Shown piece by piece: positions 25,154 to 54,910 of a stretch of DNA of 64,000 nt; the stretch's first letter is position 1, and each line of letters opens with the position of its first letter. Origin of the DNA: Streptomyces antibioticus (GTDB lineage: Bacteria; Actinomycetota; Actinomycetes; Streptomycetales; Streptomycetaceae); assembly GCF_001514065.1 (NCBI RefSeq), contig NZ_KQ948423.1:1015717-1079716 (forward strand), read 5' to 3'. The translations under genes and the position numbers were made by a program. Below the pieces are notes generated by a model. It was given only the letters and a program-made list of their open reading frames with translations, did not search any database and was not told the DNA's origin.

Positions 25154-27550
25154 ATGACCAGACGGATCTGGGCTGCCGTCATCACGTCCGTGATGGCCGC
25201 CACCCTCAGCGCGATACCCGCCCACGCCACCGACTCCACGACCGGCACCTCGACGGCCACCACTGCCGACGACCCGATCGACCCGCCCCTCTACGACCGG
25301 ACCGCCGACGGCGACACCGTCCGCGTGAACGTCGTCACCGAGACCCGCGCCGACCTCTCCGGCGCGGCGAGCGTCGGCGACACCCTGCAGTCCTTCGACA
25401 CCCTGCCCCTCGTCACCCTGCGCGTCGACAAGGCCGGGCTGGCCGAACTAGCCGCCCAGGACGGCGTGGTGAGCGTCACCGAGGACGGGCTCTCCGCGCC
25501 CTCGCTGGACCAGAGCATCCCGGTCATCGGCGCCGACACCGCGCACAAGGCCGGCAAGACCGGTGCGGGCAGCGCCATCGCGATCATCGACACCGGTGTC
25601 GCCACCAACCATCCGTTCTTCAAGGACCGGATCGTCGCCGAGGCCTGCTTCTCGCCGATCGACGCCGCCTATGGCGCCACCAGCCTGTGCGGGAACGGCG
25701 CGGCCACCCAGGAGGGCACCGGTGCCGCCAACTCCGCGGCCGGCGCCTGCGCCGGCCTCGACGGCTGCGACCACGGCACCCATGTCGCCGGTATCGCCGC
25801 CGGTGACGGCACCGGCCTGAGCGGCGCCCCCGCCACCGGTGTCGCGCCGGACGCGGGCATCGTCGCCATGCAGGTCTTCTCCAAGTTCGACTCGACGAAG
25901 TACTGCGGCGCCACCACCCCGTGCATCCGCAGCTTCACCAGCGCCCAGATCGCCGCGCTGGAGAAGGTGCTGGCACTCAAGCAGGCCGGCACCCCGATCA
26001 TCGCCGCCAACCTCAGCCTGGGCTCGGCGAGTTACTCCACCGCCTGCACCAAGGACGCCCGCGCCGCGGCCATCGACAAGCTCTACGCCGCCGGTGTCGC
26101 CACCGTCGTCGCCGCCGGCAACAACGGCAGCGCGACCGCCGTCACCGCCCCCGCCTGCGTGCCCAACGCGATCTCCGTCGGCGCCACGACCGACGACGAC
26201 CAGATCGCCTCCTTCTCCAACCACGGCCCGCTGCTCGACGTCCTCGCCCCCGGCAACGCCATCATCTCGTCGGTCCCGGGCGGCGGTTACGACTCCATGA
26301 GCGGCACCTCCATGGCGACCCCGCATGTCGCCGGTGCCCTCGCGGTCCTCCGCCAGGCCTACCCGACCGAGGGGCTGGCCAGCCTGATCTCGCTGCTCGC
26401 CACCACCGGCAAGCCGGTCACCGACGAGGCGGGCGTGACCGTACCCCGTATCGACGTGGCCAAGGCCGTCGCCGCGGTCGAGCCGAAGCCCGAGGCGGAC
26501 AAGAAGCCGCGCGCCTTCCAGGTCGACAACGACAAGGACGTCGCCATCCCGGACGCGCCGACCGGCGGCACCGGCACCGCGGTGACCTCGCCGATCACCG
26601 TCGCCGAATACCCGGGCAACGCGCCGAAGAACCTCAAGGCGTACGTCAGCATCACCCATGCCTTCCGCGGTGACGTGAAGCTGGAGCTGATCGCGCCGAA
26701 CGGCACGGCCCATCTGCTGAAGGCCGCGAGCGCCTCCGACGGCGCCGACGACATCATCGCCACGTACACCGTGGACGCCTCCGCCTCGGTCGCGAACGGC
26801 GAGTGGAAGCTGCGGATGACCGACACGGACGACGGCGACGCCGGCACGCTCACCACCTGGTCGCTGATCTTCCCGACGCCGTTCGAGAACACCACCGCCC
26901 AGACCATCCCGGACTCCGGCACCCTCAGCTCCACCATCGCCGTCTCCCAGATCGACGGCAGCGCCGCCGGGCCGCTCCAGGTCTACACGAACCTCACCCA
27001 CACCAAGATCGGTGACCTGAAGCTCGCCCTGACCAGCCCGGACGGCAAGTCGTACCCCCTCAAGCCGTACGGCTCCGAGGCCGGTGGCACCCTCCAGACG
27101 ACGTACGGCGTCGACGCCACGGACGCGGTCGCCAACGGCACCTGGACGCTGAAGGTCACCGACTCCGCGACCGGTTCGACGGGCATCCTCACCGGCTGGT
27201 CGCTCGGCTTCCCGTCGTACGAGAACCAGACCGTGAAGGCCATCCCGGACAAGAACTACACGGAGATCTGGACCAAGGCGGACGGCCTGTCGGGCGTCGG
27301 CTCCGGCAAGCTCAAGGTGTACGTGGACGTCGAGCACAGGTACCTGGGTGACCTCAAGATCGACCTGATCGCGCCGGACGGCTCGATGCACCTGCTCAAG
27401 GACAACGGCGAGGAACCCGGCGGAACCCTCAAGAAGGTCTACACGGTCGACGCGACCGATCTGCCGGTCAACGGCTGGTGGAAGCTCCGCGTCGACGACG
27501 TGGCCACGGGTGACACCGGGACGGTGCGGAACTTCGTCGTGAGGTTCTGA
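25154..27550 (+). CDS. Secreted subtilisin-family (S8) serine protease with three P-type domains (paralogue A)
   Basis: 798 residues. A Sec signal peptide (about 1-26, ending IPAHA) precedes an I9-like propeptide (about 50-115) and an S8 domain with Asp146 (IIDTGVATNHP), His207 (CDHGTHVAG), the oxyanion Asn323 (AAGNNGS) and Ser386 (SGTSMATPH). Cysteine-containing inserts lie around the His. Three consecutive ~110-residue proprotein-convertase P-like domains fill 455-798, each with the pattern IPD...PITV...GDVKLELIAPNGT...W.L...D...G.L..W.L.F. The protease is expected outside the cell. A paralogue of the same build is encoded in opposite orientation at 30393-32765. A strong terminator follows. 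Confidence 0.95.
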   Translation: MTRRIWAAVITSVMAATLSAIPAHATDSTTGTSTATTADDPIDPPLYDRTADGDTVRVNVVTETRADLSGAASVGDTLQSFDTLPLVTLRVDKAGLAELAAQDGVVSVTEDGLSAPSLDQSIPVIGADTAHKAGKTGAGSAIAIIDTGVATNHPFFKDRIVAEACFSPIDAAYGATSLCGNGAATQEGTGAANSAAGACAGLDGCDHGTHVAGIAAGDGTGLSGAPATGVAPDAGIVAMQVFSKFDSTKYCGATTPCIRSFTSAQIAALEKVLALKQAGTPIIAANLSLGSASYSTACTKDARAAAIDKLYAAGVATVVAAGNNGSATAVTAPACVPNAISVGATTDDDQIASFSNHGPLLDVLAPGNAIISSVPGGGYDSMSGTSMATPHVAGALAVLRQAYPTEGLASLISLLATTGKPVTDEAGVTVPRIDVAKAVAAVEPKPEADKKPRAFQVDNDKDVAIPDAPTGGTGTAVTSPITVAEYPGNAPKNLKAYVSITHAFRGDVKLELIAPNGTAHLLKAASASDGADDIIATYTVDASASVANGEWKLRMTDTDDGDAGTLTTWSLIFPTPFENTTAQTIPDSGTLSSTIAVSQIDGSAAGPLQVYTNLTHTKIGDLKLALTSPDGKSYPLKPYGSEAGGTLQTTYGVDATDAVANGTWTLKVTDSATGSTGILTGWSLGFPSYENQTVKAIPDKNYTEIWTKADGLSGVGSGKLKVYVDVEHRYLGDLKIDLIAPDGSMHLLKDNGEEPGGTLKKVYTVDATDLPVNGWWKLRVDDVATGDTGTVRNFVVRF

Positions 27551-28299: not shown

Positions 28300-28532
28300 T
28301 GGCCGAGGACGAGCACGAGGGCCACGACATCGAGGTCCATCTCGACCGGCTCCTCAGCGAGCGCGGGATGACCGTCACCGAACTCGCCCACCGCGTCGGC
28401 GTCACCAACGTCAATCTGTCCGTCCTCAAGAACGGGCGCGCGAAGGCGATCCGCTTCACCACCCTCACCCGGATCTGCGAGGTCCTGGACTGCCAGCCGG
28501 GTGACCTGCTCAGCTACCGCCCCAAGTCATAA
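28299..28532 (+). CDS. Small XRE/Cro-type transcription regulator
   Basis: 77 residues. After an acidic leader (MAEDEHEGHDIEVHLDRLLSERGMTVTELA) comes a helix-turn-helix (TELAHRVGVTNVNLSVLKNGRAKAIRFTTLTRICEVLDCQPGDLLSY), the YozG-like single-domain XRE pattern found next to DUF2975 genes. It should bind DNA as a dimer; the ATCG-N5-CGAT palindromes in front of the operon are the likely target. The start overlaps the DUF2975 stop by one base. The stop TAA forms part of the AAGGAG ribosome site of the following tiny gene. Confidence 0.88.
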   Translation: MAEDEHEGHDIEVHLDRLLSERGMTVTELAHRVGVTNVNLSVLKNGRAKAIRFTTLTRICEVLDCQPGDLLSYRPKS

Positions 28533-28543
28533 GGAGACAGGAC

Positions 28544-28648
28544 ATGTTCGGCGTCATGGACACCAGCATGAAGATAGTCATCACCGTCGTCGCGGCCGCC
28601 CTCATCACGGGCGTGATCCTGCTCGGCCGCTGGCTCACGAAGAAGTAA
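28544..28648 (+). CDS. 34-residue single-helix membrane peptide
   Basis: Short gene, 34 codons plus TAA, with a strong AAGGAG (28531-28536) seven bases ahead of ATG. The peptide is a short N-terminus (MFGVMDTSMK), one helix (IVITVVAAALITGVILLGRWL) and a basic end (TKK). It follows the XRE stop by 11 bases, so it is the third gene of the DUF2975 operon. Good ribosome site, hydrophobicity and position argue for a real gene. It may partner the DUF2975 protein or act as a small membrane effector; neither is shown. Confidence 0.65.
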   Translation: MFGVMDTSMKIVITVVAAALITGVILLGRWLTKK

Positions 28649-28659
28649 CCCGCGGAAAG

Positions 28660-28796
28660 CTCAATTGGGCCTCAAATAGAAAGACTTGAGTTCCCCGTAA
28701 GCTCAATTGATGCTCAGGAAAGGTCATTTGAGCTTCCCGCACCCCCATTCCATGCGGAAGGATCAAGGCAAGCGAGAACGCCGAAGGGGAAAGGCG
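28660..28796 (+). promoter_or_regulatory. Shared promoter module, copy 1 (upstream of unknown secreted protein)
   Basis: Two near-copies of CTCAATTGARGCTCAA (28660-28675 and 28702-28717, each 14/16), further CTCAA/TTGAG half-sites (28685-28690, 28728-28733), then GGAAGGATCA (28756-28765) and AACGCCGAAGGGGAAAGGCG (28777-28796). The same elements, in the same order and orientation relative to the gene, stand before subtilisin B; the distance from last repeat to GGAAGGATCA is 38 bases in both. Confidence 0.7.
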
Positions 28797-28883
28797 GAAT
28801 CGCTTGTAGGGGGGCGAATCATCGCGCTTTCCCTACTGCTTATTTCAGTTCGTGTACTCATTCACGTAACGGAGGCAGTAGAT

Positions 28884-29648
28884 ATGCGTACCACGTCCAA
28901 GATGAACCGCAAGCGGCTCGTCGGAATGGCCGTCGCCACCGCGGCGGCGATCACGATGGCGGCCCTGCCGGGCTCCGCGTTCGCCGACGACACCACCGGC
29001 ACCACGCCCGAGGCCTACGAGGCCTATCTGGTGGAGCAGGTGGAGCTCGGTGACACGGACGCCCAGGAGACCCTGGACCAGTACTCGGCGCTCTCCGACG
29101 GCGACAAGGAACAGTTCGTCGATCTGCTGAACGATCCTCAGCGCGGCCAGGAGCTGGGCGACTTCATATCGGACGTCTCCGACATCGAGTCCATCGACGA
29201 GGAGCACTACACCACCGAGACGAGAAAGGAGGCCGCGGACGGCAACGTCGTCCTGGAGGCCACCCTCGCCGTCGAGGAGACCGAGACGCCCCCGACCACC
29301 GACGAGGAACTCGCCGACCCGAGCGCCCGGTACTACGACCGGAGCGCCTGGTACTCCGTCTCCGACACCATCTTCGGCGTGAAGGTGACGACCGTGAAGA
29401 TCGGCGTCAACTACCGCACGACCTCGTCCCGTGTCGTGAAGGTCTACGGCGGCTGGGCCTCGCACCGCAACTTCGTGCCGTTCGCCGAGTTCTCCAACAG
29501 CCCGGTCCAGACGTGGATCTCCGCCGACCCGGCGAACAACGCCACCGCGCAGACCATCTGGCAGGGCAAGTGGTCCGGCTTCTCCTGGGACGCCCGTGAG
29601 CGCATCTGGGCCGACCAGAGCGGCTTCAAGGGCGGCTACCTGAAGTAG
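28884..29648 (+). CDS. Secreted protein of unknown function
   Basis: 254 residues from the ATG at 28884 (GGAGG eight bases ahead). A signal peptide MRTTSKMNRKRLVGMAVATAAAITMAALPGSAFA is followed by an acidic, mostly helical half (TPEAYEAYLVEQVELGDTDAQETLDQYSALSDGDKEQFVDLLNDPQ) and a C-terminal half rich in aromatic residues and beta character (SDTIFGVKVTTVKIGVNYRTTSS, VYGGWASHRNFVPFAEFSNS, WQGKWSGFSWDARERIW). No cysteines or known catalytic motif. I do not recognise the family. Its promoter region closely matches that of subtilisin B, so the two are probably coregulated; it could be a substrate, inhibitor or partner of that protease. Confidence 0.85.
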   Translation: MRTTSKMNRKRLVGMAVATAAAITMAALPGSAFADDTTGTTPEAYEAYLVEQVELGDTDAQETLDQYSALSDGDKEQFVDLLNDPQRGQELGDFISDVSDIESIDEEHYTTETRKEAADGNVVLEATLAVEETETPPTTDEELADPSARYYDRSAWYSVSDTIFGVKVTTVKIGVNYRTTSSRVVKVYGGWASHRNFVPFAEFSNSPVQTWISADPANNATAQTIWQGKWSGFSWDARERIWADQSGFKGGYLK

Positions 29649-29664
29649 GCCCCTCCCGTCCCGC

Positions 29665-29719
29665 ACCGGCAGAGCCGGTCGTGTCGAGCATCTCGCTCGG
29701 CGCGGCCGGCTCTGCCGGT
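29665..29719 (+). terminator. Terminator after secreted protein gene
   Basis: Inverted repeat ACCGGCAGAGCCGG (29665-29678) and CCGGCTCTGCCGGT (29706-29719), followed by TTTT. Confidence 0.8.
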
Positions 29720-29786
29720 TTTCCGTGTGCGCTCTCGCGCGCAAAAGCGTTTGCCGCCGGCCCGTCCGGCCCGATAAGAAGCCTGC

Positions 29787-30329
29787 ATGCTTAAAGGCAG
29801 CAAGGTCGGGCTCCGGGCCCGGCACGAGGACGACATCCCGGTTCTCCAGGCCGAGCTCTACGACGACGTGGTCAACACGGCGCGCGCCGACGGCAGGCCC
29901 TGGCGGCCGCTCCCGCCCAGCACCACCGACGGGAAGTTCGTGGTGGACCCCACGGACCAGGAGAACCTCCCGTTCTCCGTGGTGGACCTGGAGAGCGGCG
30001 AGCTGGTCGGCGCGGCGACGCTGTGGGGGCTCGACACCCACAACCGGTACGCCCACATCGGGCTCGGCCTGCTGCCGTCCGCCCGCGGCAAAGGCTACGG
30101 CACCGACGTGGTCGCGGTGCTGTGCCACTACGGCTTCGTCGTACGCGGCCTGCAACGGCTCCAGATCGAGACGCTGACGGACAACGTCGCGATGCTGCGC
30201 TCCGCCGAGAGCAACGGCTTCGTCCGCGAGGGCGTGCTGCGCTCCGCGGCCTGGGTGCTGGGCGAGTTCGTGGACGAGGTGATCCTGGGACTGCTCGCCG
30301 AGGAGTGGAAGCAGGGCACGAACGAGTAG
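29787..30329 (+). CDS. GNAT family N-acetyltransferase
   Basis: 180-residue acyl-CoA-dependent acetyltransferase of the RimJ/RimL type. It starts MLKGSKVGLRARHEDDIPVL. The acetyl-CoA-binding motif is GLLPSARGKGYGTDVVAVLCHYGF (R/Q-x-x-G-x-G/A present as RGKGYG), and LTDNVAMLRSAESNGFVREGVLR is the usual end of the fold. Substrate unknown: ribosomal protein N-termini, antibiotics or polyamines are all possible. It is convergent with the second subtilisin gene; a bidirectional terminator lies between them. Confidence 0.9.
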   Translation: MLKGSKVGLRARHEDDIPVLQAELYDDVVNTARADGRPWRPLPPSTTDGKFVVDPTDQENLPFSVVDLESGELVGAATLWGLDTHNRYAHIGLGLLPSARGKGYGTDVVAVLCHYGFVVRGLQRLQIETLTDNVAMLRSAESNGFVREGVLRSAAWVLGEFVDEVILGLLAEEWKQGTNE

Positions 30330-30345
30330 GCGGCGGAAACACGTC

Positions 30346-30377
30346 AAAGCCCGGCCGGGTGACCCCGGCCGGGCTTT
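30346..30377. terminator. Bidirectional terminator between GNAT and subtilisin B genes
   Basis: Perfect 14-bp inverted repeat AAAGCCCGGCCGGG (30346-30359) and CCCGGCCGGGCTTT (30364-30377), four-base loop, T-rich on the plus strand and A-rich arms making it work both ways. Confidence 0.85.
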
Positions 30378-30392
30378 TCGGTCGTACGGCTG

Positions 30393-32765
30393 TCAGAAGG
30401 TCAGCGCCCAGTCGTCCAGCGTGCCCGTCCCGCCCGCCGACTTGTCGGCGACCTGGAGCTTCCAGGTGCCCGCGACCGGGGAGGCGCTCGCGTCGACCGT
30501 GTAGACCTTGTTGAGCGTGCCGCCCGGGTCCGTCGCGTTGGTGGCCTTCACGGCGTAGACCAGGCCGTTCGGGGCGACCAGGTCGATCTTCACCTCGCCG
30601 AGCCAGTCGTGGGTGAGGGCGAGGGAGACCTTCAGGGTCTTCGGCGCGTTGCCGGAGATGCCGGTCAGCTTGATCGGCGCCTGGAGCGTGCCGGCGTCCG
30701 GGATGGCATACGTGGACTGGCTCTCGATCGACGGGAAGGCCAGGGACCAGTTGTTCAGGGTGCCAATGCCGCCCGCCGACTTGTCGGCGACGAGGAGCTT
30801 CCAGGTGCCGTTGGCCGCGGAGGCGCTCGCGTCGACCGTGTACGTCTTGCTGAGCGTCCCGCCCGGGTCGGTGCCGTTGGTGGCCTTCAGGGCGTACGTC
30901 TGACCGTTCGGGGCCACCAGGTCGATCTTCACCTCACCGAGCCACTCGTGGGTGACGTTCACGGACGCCTGGAGCGCGCCGGAGGCGTTGCCGCTGACGC
31001 CGTCCACCGTGATCTCGGAGGTGAGGGTCGCCGCGTCCGGGACGGCGGCTGAGGCCGTCTTCGCGAACGGGGTCGGGAACGTCAGCGCCCAGTCGTCGAT
31101 GGTCCCGGTGCCGCCGGCGGACTTGTCGGCGACCTGGAGCTTCCAGGTGCCGCTCGCCGGGGAGACGCTCGCGTCGACCGTGTACGTCTTGGTCAGCGTG
31201 CCGCCCGGGTCGGTGCCGTTGGTGGCCTTCAGGGCGTACGTCTGGCCGTCGGGGGCGACCAGGTCGATCTTCACCTCGCCGAGCCACTCGTGGGTGACGG
31301 CCACGGAGACCTGGAGGGTCTTGGGCGCGTTGCCGGTGACGCCGGAGACGGTGATCGGGGACTGGACGGTGCCGAGGTCCGGGACGGCGTACGAGGCGTC
31401 GTTGAGGATCTTCGTCCGGCGGGTGGTGTCGGCGGGCTGCGGGACCGGCTGGGGCGTCGCGGCGCCGACCGCCTTGCCGACGTCGATACGGGGTACGGTC
31501 ACGCCCGCCTCGTCGGTGACCGGCGTGCCGGTCGACTTCAGCAGCGTCTCCAGCTCGGCGAGGGTCTTGTCCGGGTAGGCCTGGCGCAGGACGGCGAGGG
31601 CACCGGCGACGTGCGGGGTGGCCATGGAGGTGCCGCTCTTGGAGTCGTAGCCGGTGAGGACGGAGGAGATGATGCCGTTGCCGGGGGCGAGGACGTCGAG
31701 CAGCGGGCCGTGGTTGGAGAAGGAGGCGATCTGGTCGTCGTCGGTCGTGGCGCCGACGGAGATCGCGTTGGGCACGCAGGCGGGGGCGGTGACGGCGGTC
31801 GCGCTGCCGTTGTTGCCGGCGGCGACGACGGTGGCGACTCCGGCCTCGTAGAGGCTGTCGATGACGGTCTTGCGGGCGTCCTTGGTGCAGGCGGCGGAGT
31901 AACTCGCCGAGCCCAGGCTGAGGTTGGCGGCGATGATCGGGGTGCCGGCCTGCTTGAGCGCCAGCACCTTCTCCAGCGCGGCGATCTGGGCGCTGGTGAA
32001 GCTGCGGATGCACGGGGTGGTGGTGCCGCAGTACTTCGTGGAGTCGAGCTTGGAGAAGACCTGGATGGCGACGATGTCCGCGCCGGGGGCGACACCGGTG
32101 GCGGGGGCGCCGGTCAGGCCGGTGCCGTCACCGGCGGCGATACCGGCGACATGGGTGCCGTGGTCGCACTCGGCGATGGCCGCGCAGGTGGCGGCATTGG
32201 CGGCGCCGGTGCCCTCCTGGGTGGCCGCGCCGTTCCCGCACAGGCTGGTGGCGCCGTAGGCGGCGTCGACCGGCGAGAAGCAGGCCTCGGTGGTGACCCG
32301 GCCCTTCAGGAAGGGGTGGTTGGCGGCGACCCCGGTGTCCAGGACGGCGATCGCGCTGCCCTTGCCGGTCTTACCGGCCGCGATGGCCTTGTCGCCGCCG
32401 ATGATCCGCACGCTCTCGTCGAGCGAGGGCGCGACCAGCTCGTCCTCGGTGACGCTGACGACGCCCGGCTGGGCCGCCAGTTCGTCCAGGCCGCCCTTGT
32501 CCACCTCCAGGGTGACCATGGGCAGCGTCTTGAAGGACAGCCGCGTCTCACCGGCGCCCGCCGCGGTGGCGATGTCCCCGCGGTCCTCGGTGACGACATT
32601 GACGCGCACGGTGCCGCCGTCGGCGGTCTCGTCGTAGAGCGGCGGATCGATCGGATCGGATTCCGTGACCGCCGGGCTCGATATCTCGGTGGCGTAGGCG
32701 GGAATTGCTCCGAGGCTTACGGTCATCAGCACAGTGGCGACCGTCGCCCATATCTGTCTCTTCAT
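30393..32765 (-). CDS. Secreted subtilisin-family (S8) serine protease with three P-type domains (paralogue B)
   Basis: 790 residues from the ATG at 32765 (MKRQIWATV, GAGAG upstream); an in-frame start at 32825 is not signal-peptide-like. Same build as paralogue A: signal peptide ending IPAYA, propeptide, S8 domain with VLDTGVAANHP, CDHGTHVAG, AAGNNGS and SGTSMATPH, and three P-like domains. Large stretches are nearly identical to A through the catalytic domain, while the P domains have drifted: those of B are more like one another (repeated SVxVTHEWLGEVKIDLVAP and TYTVDASxSxAxGTWKLxVADKSAGG), suggesting recent internal duplication. Upstream lies the shared CTCAATTGARGCTCAA promoter module, which paralogue A lacks. 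Confidence 0.95.
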   Translation of the reverse strand: MKRQIWATVATVLMTVSLGAIPAYATEISSPAVTESDPIDPPLYDETADGGTVRVNVVTEDRGDIATAAGAGETRLSFKTLPMVTLEVDKGGLDELAAQPGVVSVTEDELVAPSLDESVRIIGGDKAIAAGKTGKGSAIAVLDTGVAANHPFLKGRVTTEACFSPVDAAYGATSLCGNGAATQEGTGAANAATCAAIAECDHGTHVAGIAAGDGTGLTGAPATGVAPGADIVAIQVFSKLDSTKYCGTTTPCIRSFTSAQIAALEKVLALKQAGTPIIAANLSLGSASYSAACTKDARKTVIDSLYEAGVATVVAAGNNGSATAVTAPACVPNAISVGATTDDDQIASFSNHGPLLDVLAPGNGIISSVLTGYDSKSGTSMATPHVAGALAVLRQAYPDKTLAELETLLKSTGTPVTDEAGVTVPRIDVGKAVGAATPQPVPQPADTTRRTKILNDASYAVPDLGTVQSPITVSGVTGNAPKTLQVSVAVTHEWLGEVKIDLVAPDGQTYALKATNGTDPGGTLTKTYTVDASVSPASGTWKLQVADKSAGGTGTIDDWALTFPTPFAKTASAAVPDAATLTSEITVDGVSGNASGALQASVNVTHEWLGEVKIDLVAPNGQTYALKATNGTDPGGTLSKTYTVDASASAANGTWKLLVADKSAGGIGTLNNWSLAFPSIESQSTYAIPDAGTLQAPIKLTGISGNAPKTLKVSLALTHDWLGEVKIDLVAPNGLVYAVKATNATDPGGTLNKVYTVDASASPVAGTWKLQVADKSAGGTGTLDDWALTF

Positions 32766-32830
32766 GGCACTCTCGAAATAGGAAGGTGAATTACCGTGCA
32801 TTACCCTGGCGTTGCCCCAGGACACGGTTT

Positions 32831-32979
32831 CGCCTTTCCCCTTCGGCGTTGCCGCGCAGGCATGATCCTTCCACCGGCCACCAGCCGAGAGCGAGGGCTA
32901 CTCGAGTCTTCTGAGCTTCAATTGAGCCTGACCCCGCGTTTTGAGCTTCAATTGAGACTCTGTTTGAGCCTCAATTGAG
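32831..32979 (-). promoter_or_regulatory. Shared promoter module, copy 2 (upstream of subtilisin B)
   Basis: Read toward the gene: CTCAATTGARGCTCAA-type repeats at 32979-32964, 32956-32941 (both perfect) and 32926-32911 (one mismatch), then GGAAGGATCA (32872-32863) and AACGCCGAAGGGGAAAGGCG (32850-32831). Order, orientation and the 38-base gap between last repeat and GGAAGGATCA equal those of copy 1. Confidence 0.72.
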
Positions 32980-32988
32980 AATGACTCA

Positions 32989-34242
32989 TCAGGCGCGGTG
33001 CGAACCAGACTTGGCCCGCGAACCGTCCGGCCACAGCTGCGGCCTGCGCTTGGCGGCGAGGTCCTCCGCCCAGCCGAACCAGACGATGCAGCTGCCGATG
33101 AGGATCCAGGCGAAGACCAGCACCGGCCACGGGCTCTCCAGGAGCCAGGAGAAGTGCTGCCACATCAGGTCGATGCCCCACAGCCGGTCCCAGATCGTCA
33201 TCGCGACGACGATGCAGGTGTTGTGCCACAGATAGATCGTCACGGCACGGGAGTTGAGGAGGGTGATCGGCCGGTCGAAGCGCTTGAGCCGCTTGGGCCA
33301 CTCGGACCAGGACGGGCTGACGTGCAGCAGGATCATGACCGTGCCCAGCGACCACAGGGCCTGCGCGAAGGGCATGCTGTCGAGGTCGTTGCCCTGGGAG
33401 AAGTCGTGCTTGGTCGCGTACCAGAGGCCGAGCAGGGCGATGGCCGGCGCGACGGACGGGACGACGTAGCGCGGCAGTTGCTTGAGCAGGCCCTCCTGGT
33501 GGGCCATGCCGAGGATCCAGCAGGCGCCGAAGGTGCTGAAGTCGGTGAGGGCGGAGGGGAAGCGCTCACCGGGCAGCGTGATGTAACCGAACTCGAAGGC
33601 GGCCGACAGGACGATCGGCGCGAAGACGGTCGCGACCGGCAGGGCGCGCAGCGCCTTGAGGAGGAACGGCGACAGCAGGACGTACCAGAGGTAGGCGCGG
33701 ATGTACCAGAGCGGTCCGGCGAGGTCCACGGCCCAGTTCTCGGCGAGGTAGCCGTGCACACCGGGCAGACCCTCGGCGTACGGCGGGTCGCTCAACGGCA
33801 GGATCCAGTAGGTGAGATGGAGCCACCACCAGCCCGGGTGACCGTCGTCGGACGGACCCCAGCCCTGGACGACCATGCCGGTGACGCCGACGACGCCCAG
33901 CACCCACAGCGGCGGCAGCAGCCGGCGGATGCGGCTCTTGATGACCTGCGCGGCCGGGCGCTTGAGCGAGCGGGCCATGAGGTTGCCGGCGAGGGCGAAC
34001 ATCACGCCCATGGACGGGAACACCAGCGGCAGCCACGCCCAGCCGGTCAGGTGGTAGAGGACCACGCGGAACAGGGCGAGGGCCCGCAGCAGGTCGAAGT
34101 AGCGGTCGCGGACGGGGCCCTTGGGCCGGACGGCCGGCGGCTGCTCCTGCTGCTCGGGGACGGTCGGCACGAGGGGAACGGTCACGTCCACGGCTTTCTG
34201 CGACGAAGAGGAAGGTGAGGGCGGGTAGTACGGCGTGCTCAT
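32989..34242 (-). CDS. Acyltransferase 3-family membrane protein
   Basis: 417-residue multi-pass membrane acyltransferase (O-acyl modification of cell-surface glycans). After a Pro/Ser-rich cytoplasmic leader the domain opens RDRYFDLLRALALFRVVLYHLTGWAW, with the Arg and His expected in the first helix of this family, followed by about ten helices and the basic end AAKRRPQLWPDG. Its ATG overlaps the matB stop (ATGA), so it belongs to the mat operon. The simplest reading is that it O-acylates the MatAB polysaccharide, as succinyl- or acetyltransferases do in other exopolysaccharide operons. That is inference. Confidence 0.9.
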   Translation of the reverse strand: MSTPYYPPSPSSSSQKAVDVTVPLVPTVPEQQEQPPAVRPKGPVRDRYFDLLRALALFRVVLYHLTGWAWLPLVFPSMGVMFALAGNLMARSLKRPAAQVIKSRIRRLLPPLWVLGVVGVTGMVVQGWGPSDDGHPGWWWLHLTYWILPLSDPPYAEGLPGVHGYLAENWAVDLAGPLWYIRAYLWYVLLSPFLLKALRALPVATVFAPIVLSAAFEFGYITLPGERFPSALTDFSTFGACWILGMAHQEGLLKQLPRYVVPSVAPAIALLGLWYATKHDFSQGNDLDSMPFAQALWSLGTVMILLHVSPSWSEWPKRLKRFDRPITLLNSRAVTIYLWHNTCIVVAMTIWDRLWGIDLMWQHFSWLLESPWPVLVFAWILIGSCIVWFGWAEDLAAKRRPQLWPDGSRAKSGSHRA

Positions 34243-54491: not shown

Positions 54492-54525
54492 GAGCCCACA
54501 TGGGGTGCCCATCGGTCTGGGCGAG

Positions 54526-54910
54526 TGGAGATGGCGGGAATCGAACCCGCGTCCAACGGTGCTGAATCAGGGCTTCTCCGTGTGCAGTTCGCTGTGATTT
54601 TCTCGGCCCCGGCAATCACGCGAACAAGTCGCCGACGGGCCCAGTCACTGTTTGATTTCCCATCCGACCCCGTGACCGGGCCGAATGGTTTAGTCCCCTA
54701 GATTATGCCAGGGTCCGGGTCGGGAACACCCCCGGTCTGACACCCGTTAAGGGCCTTCACTCACTGCTTATTAGGCAGCGAGGGCGAAGGCGCGGGAATC
54801 GCTCTTGGAATTGGCGATTATTGGTTGCGACATATGGTTTACGAGATCATTGCCGCTTCCTCGACACGCTTCCCCTGCTTCGACAGCCGCTGTCGAAACC
54901 GATCATCCCC
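54526..54910 (-). ncRNA. ssrA: Transfer-messenger RNA (tmRNA)
   Basis: 385 nt. The 5' end GGGGATG pairs with CATCTCC before the encoded CCA (54528-54526), with the G3-U pair recognised by alanyl-tRNA synthetase; GGTTCGATTCC of the T arm is present. The tag frame at 54815-54774 reads ANSKSDSRAFALAA and ends TAA TAA; the C-terminal ALAA is the usual protease signal. With SmpB it rescues stalled ribosomes. smpB lies 98 bases upstream on the same strand, which is the common Streptomyces arrangement. Confidence 0.97.

Follow-up and report, generated by a model that had tools for sequence, protein, structure and literature searches.

Two genes for exported proteins in Streptomyces antibioticus are preceded by the same three-part sequence module, which raises the question of what this module is and which regulator reads it. 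We analyzed a stretch of 64,000 nt (the window) and searched for the parts of the module there and in the 10.1-Mb genome. One of the two genes encodes a secreted protein of 254 amino acids (28884-29648, plus strand), for which the profile search gave no Pfam or NCBIfam match at E ≤ 0.001 and for which a helical N domain and a beta C domain are predicted. The other encodes a secreted subtilisin with three P-domain stretches (Peptidase_S8 in the domain search; 30393-32765, minus strand). On the basis of the repeats, the promoter geometry, the conservation and the covariation observed in silico, we favour the reading that the module combines an activator-dependent promoter with a hairpin in the 5' leader, that it was copied to a second gene and that GluR is a candidate for its regulator.

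The third block of the module, the 20-mer AACGCCGAAGGGGAAAGGCG, occurs in two exact copies in the window, at 28777-28796 (plus strand) and 32831-32850 (minus strand), compared to 0.03 copies in shuffled sequences, and no third copy was found in the window with up to three mismatches. Block 2, GGAAGGATCA, is present exactly twice in the window (28756-28765, plus strand; 32863-32872, minus strand). The block 1 repeat CTCAATTGARGCTCAA has five window matches with up to three mismatches, two in the secreted-protein promoter and three in the subtilisin promoter. The distance from the last repeat to GGAAGGATCA is 38 nt in both promoters, and the distance from there to the 20-mer is 11 nt in one and 12 nt in the other. 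Order, orientation and spacings are those that an earlier note on this DNA had stated, and they are far above chance; the coding regions served are unrelated, as it had also said. According to the same note, a module occurring hundreds of times genome-wide without a link to gene starts would speak against a control unit. The 16-base core GCCGAAGGGGAAAGGC is found in exact form only at these two promoters. Exact block 1 repeats are restricted to the subtilisin promoter in the whole genome, and with one mismatch allowed four matches appear: the subtilisin promoter holds three, and the fourth precedes a bldC-like gene, presumably bldC. Both repeats of the secreted-protein promoter have two mismatches each in this search. 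A paralogous subtilisin (25154-27550, plus strand; 63% identity to the module-bearing one) lacks the module according to the note, and none of the window searches for the 20-mer, GGAAGGATCA, the repeat or CTCAR-N6-CTCAR gave a match near it.

CTCAR-N6-CTCAR is the common feature of all five window repeats (5 matches; 0.32 expected by chance). In the secreted-protein promoter, the distal operator unit is located at 28660-28675 and the proximal unit at 28702-28717 on the plus strand; the subtilisin promoter contains a distal (32964-32979), a middle (32941-32956) and a proximal unit (32911-32926) on the minus strand. The repeats had been taken for AT-rich palindromic operators. However, only one of the five is a perfect palindrome (CTCAATTGAG), and what the relatives keep is a direct repeat with a period of 11 bp. 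The palindrome appears to be incidental, because the distant relatives Streptomyces resistomycificus and Streptomyces sclerotialus carry tandem GCTCAA-N5 with the same period. A small open reading frame of about 34 codons (28544-28649, plus strand), which follows a helix-turn-helix gene, stops just before the operator, and its end is also found in the relatives L044-L047.

Relatives of the secreted protein were found in six named Streptomyces records, and the repeats are present in all of them. Four of the six (L044-L047) keep all three blocks, including the proximal operator unit; in the more distant S. resistomycificus and S. sclerotialus the repeats are kept and blocks 2 and 3 have diverged. 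A homologue is encoded in 13 of 392 genomes of the genus, including this one. Nine of the 12 others carry an upstream CTCAR-N6-CTCAR in the orientation of the gene; in two of the remaining three it is reversed (once about 300 nt upstream), and the third homologue is a fragment without a start. Within ten loci of 10-18 kb the match upstream of the homologue was the sole one, and the operator is again found upstream of homologues whose protein identity is 26-58%. Nine distinct homologues found later (E<1e-25) had no part in the definition of the motif. The operator was exact in three of these, had one mismatch in one (by eye) and was reversed in two, against a background of about 0.02 matches per 300 nt and strand. 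Across the order, members of the protein family turned up in 16 of 293 genomes, all of them Streptomyces (one of nine genera). The direct repeat was noted in reverse orientation upstream of the homologues L179, L180, L095 and L096 (L096 about 300 nt upstream), and several distant paralogues (L187-L194) show another upstream box, approximately GAGACAATTTCGGCCAA with a stretch resembling GTAAGGTCGTTG after it.

Head-to-tail repeats with a period of about 11 bp are typical of OmpR/PhoB-type operators. PhoB/PhoP-type boxes are 11-bp direct repeats of the form GTTCACC-N4-GTTCACC; the window repeats share with them the period, the head-to-tail arrangement and a location directly before the -35 region, and differ in sequence. 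Block 1 is a direct repeat of the kind bound by response regulators of the OmpR/PhoB family, and its regulator is likely to belong to this family. PhoP itself was considered as a candidate and rejected: its box has six window matches with up to three mismatches, which is the chance level, and none of them lies at the promoters.

For the promoter geometry, 20 promoters (18 of secreted-protein or subtilisin genes and two gluA-like) were scanned with a model of the primary sigma factor, starting at the second CTCA. In all 20, the distance between this CTCA and the best -35 hexamer was 10 or 20/21 nt; shuffled sequences reached this in 10%, with a maximum of 6 of 20. The two spacing classes are one helical turn apart. 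Both window promoters show a predicted -10 hexamer AAGGAT at 45 nt (28758-28763 in the secreted-protein promoter) and a poor -35 hexamer 21 nt from the second CTCA, TTCCCG (28734-28739, plus strand) or TCGCTC (32889-32894, minus strand), with 18 bp between -35 and -10. A poor -35 region is expected for an activator-dependent promoter, and the operator directly precedes the predicted -35 and is in helical phase with it, as known for OmpR/PhoB-type regulators. Since the scan places AAGGAT within GGAAGGATCA in both promoters, block 2 fits a -10 region.

Block 3 is probably part of the transcribed leader, because it is located 3' of the predicted start and shows the covariation of a hairpin. Stretches of 44-45 nt of both leaders fold into the same two-stem hairpin, here called SL1, which holds the 20-mer. 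In the secreted-protein leader (28769-28806, plus strand) it consists of an outer stem CAAGCG/CGCTTG, an inner stem CGCC/GGCG and the loop GAAGGGGAAA; in the subtilisin leader (32822-32857, minus strand) the outer stem is GCGCGG/CCGTGT, and the inner stem and the loop are the same. Covariation was analyzed in 11 rows, 9 of them distinct, which cover both genes, with 500 shuffles and slid controls. 98.9% of the cells are paired, and 4 of 10 pairs show two-sided changes. On four of five measures, all 500 shuffles stayed below the observed value, and slid controls reached at most 42.7% pairing. The fold of the secreted-protein leader has a z-score of -4.69. With respect to the earlier note, the idea of a genuine control unit is supported: the module has the same order, orientation and spacing at two genes whose exported products are unrelated, and relatives conserve it. 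The idea of three operator parts on the DNA is not supported, and the note's proviso that the module might be a transcribed repeat applies to one block of the three, block 3, going by the predicted start.

Further structure is suggested downstream of SL1. In SL2 (28806-28836, plus strand) the G-tract GTAGGGGGG pairs with CTTTCCCTAC; it is proposed from invariance and from one-sided changes only. The G-tract and CUUUCCC are invariant in seven of seven secreted-protein leaders, two of which have an extra hairpin-bearing stretch between them. A helix CTACTGC/GCAGTAG (28833-28881, plus strand), likewise with one-sided changes only, extends into the ribosome-binding site GGAGG (28871-28875). CTTTCCC (28827-28833) could pair with the G-tract or alternatively with the SL1 loop. 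It is a speculative and rather unlikely idea that the loop and the G-tract compete for CUUUCCC and in this way control access to the ribosome-binding site as a new cis-regulatory RNA, while a glutamate-sensing regulator controls transcription, so that extracellular proteolysis would be set at two levels and the operator-promoter-hairpin cassette would have moved as a unit to a new protease gene.

In Bacillus, stem-loops in aprE-type 5' leaders stabilise the mRNA of secreted proteases. The subtilisin leader of the window is similar in having a stem-loop at the extreme 5' end of the mRNA of a secreted subtilisin, as judged from the predicted start, whereas the conserved purine loop and the covarying two-stem form distinguish it from the aprE type.

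The operator also occurs outside of the two promoters. The genome holds five exact matches to the refined form CTCARNTNNNNCTCARA, four of them described here and one between a gene for an OmpR-family regulator and a gene for a GlnQ-like ATPase. We call this site gluA/gluR-like, names which rest on the gene arrangement and on reviews. According to two reviews, this gluR/gluABCD arrangement is described, GluR binds upstream of gluA, and gluABCD is a direct GluR target (PMC10345050, PMC9518994). As in the GluR-GluK/gluABCD system, the regulator gene is divergent from a gene of a glutamate/glutamine-type ABC transporter. Of 25 Streptomyces loci fetched, the start of the regulator gene was found in 23, this genome included, and all 23 contain CTCA-N7-CTCA at the site. 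The gluA-like promoter carries the same operator, with 10 nt to the -35 and 18 nt to the -10, which is also the arrangement of one class of secreted-protein promoters. In contrast, the window promoters have two or three operator units, located one helical turn farther from the -35, plus the RNA hairpin. The conservation of this operator and of its geometry at the gluA-like gene makes GluR the leading candidate, an assignment that we regard as tentative.

Operator plus TTGNC was searched in 246 genomes and found at 110 places in 99 genomes (control about 41). 17 of 30 fetched loci (L195-L224) lie before typA/bipA in other Streptomyces, with CTCAG-N6-CTCAA or a close form, 10 nt and then TTGCC (TTGCCC). 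In most of these typA-upstream loci, the region from -35 to -10 contains a GC-rich inverted repeat. The typA gene of S. antibioticus itself is not preceded by the operator. The typA matches point to a larger group of promoters that carry this operator; it is thus not private to exported proteins, which leaves room for a regulator other than GluR. The earlier proposal of an undescribed factor for exported proteins only was not borne out, given the gluA-like gene beside an OmpR-family regulator gene and the typA genes elsewhere.

A comparison of the two window promoters gives hints on their history. The operator is identical at 15 of 16 positions, the -10 block at 10 of 10 and the 20-mer at 20 of 20; the spacer is identical at 12 of 38 positions (9.8 expected) and the next 40 nt at 12 of 40. 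In the simplest history, the subtilisin promoter would have arisen by copying of the secreted-protein promoter, with later decay of unimportant parts. The secreted-protein promoter would be the older one, because it is more widespread. A second unit resembling that of the subtilisin lies about 4 kb downstream on the opposite strand in three records (GKU 895, S. justiciae and Act143); in S. resistomycificus the region downstream of the secreted-protein gene has no second subtilisin. In the favoured reading, an OmpR/PhoB-family response regulator would bind the tandem CTCAR-N6-CTCAR repeats on one face of the helix and recruit RNA polymerase to a promoter whose -35 is poor and whose -10, AAGGAT, lies 18 bp downstream. 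Transcription would start a few bases before the 20-mer, and the mRNA would begin with the two-stem hairpin exposing the loop GAAGGGGAAA, which most simply would protect the mRNA or tune translation. GluR of the glutamate-sensing GluR-GluK system would be the best candidate for this regulator, and a copy of the promoter would have been placed before the second subtilisin.

Several observations weigh against this reading. The scanned promoters are often related and are not 20 independent events; the weights of the model were set by hand and the positions were first noticed by eye. Three of the nine later homologues have no operator, one of which is missing its N-terminal part, and the operator is absent upstream of all seven distant secreted-protein homologues. 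The pattern CTCARNTNNNNCTCARA was drawn after the gluA site had been seen; the loose operator pattern has 8 genome matches compared to 6 for the reversed control, and the refined pattern with one mismatch has 35 compared to 31. On the fifth covariation measure (further pair types), 478 of 500 shuffles were as high. The subtilisin SL1 alone is no better than shuffles (z-score -0.40), and a longer subtilisin leader has a different best fold that does not include it. SL1 was found in close relatives only; a search of 392 genomes with an SL1 model was confident only in this genome (two places) and one relative. Finally, the typA-associated operator of other species gives no hint of glutamate, and this genome has another OmpR-type regulator gene with three CTCAGA repeats of 11-bp period upstream (G000:C9:222301-222328, L141).

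The last two points agree with the possibility, which we take seriously, that another OmpR/PhoB-family regulator with CTCA-type specificity reads the operator and that the gluA-like gene and typA are targets of it or of its paralogues; yet in this genome the exact CTCARNTNNNNCTCARA is shared with the gluA/gluR site only. The divergent neighbour of the regulator gene at L141 encodes a 449-aa protein with a membrane-protein-like start. The MerR-like BldC binds head-to-tail AATT(N3-4)(C/G) direct repeats with a degenerate consensus, according to PMC6428758. By eye, the window repeats, which come in several copies and variable number, contain AATT followed by C/G with roughly this spacing, and a repeat with one mismatch precedes the bldC-like gene of this genome. 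However, homologues of the window promoters keep CTCA and not AATT, and CTCA-N7-CTCA was absent from the 560 nt upstream of bldC in all 30 other genomes examined (60 have the gene), which makes BldC quite improbable. For the secretion-stress regulators CutR and CssR it can be said that the targets are exported and one is a protease, and that CutRS and CssRS control HtrA proteases, as stated in PMC12802291. The CutR site TAWATAAA, which bears on CutR, has no match in the whole window, and control by either of the two is improbable. That the blocks are functionless leftovers of a recent duplication agrees with the subtilisin promoter being most simply a copy, but it is very hard to reconcile with a 38-nt spacer decayed to chance between preserved blocks, with compensated changes in the SL1 stems and with the recurrence of the operator before diverged homologues.

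If the assignment to GluR is true, a testable operator and promoter geometry for this regulator would extend to a secreted protease and a Pfam-less secreted protein family, and the operator before presumed glutamate-uptake genes hints at nutrient sensing controlling secretion. Promoter and leader hairpin kept as one cassette allow functional blocks to be distinguished from decayed spacer within a single genome. A search of Rfam gave no match at either leader, and four matches below the gathering score in 28500-33100 do not lie on the hairpins. The only Rfam match in the window is a tmRNA gene (RF00023), located at 54523-54910 on the minus strand.

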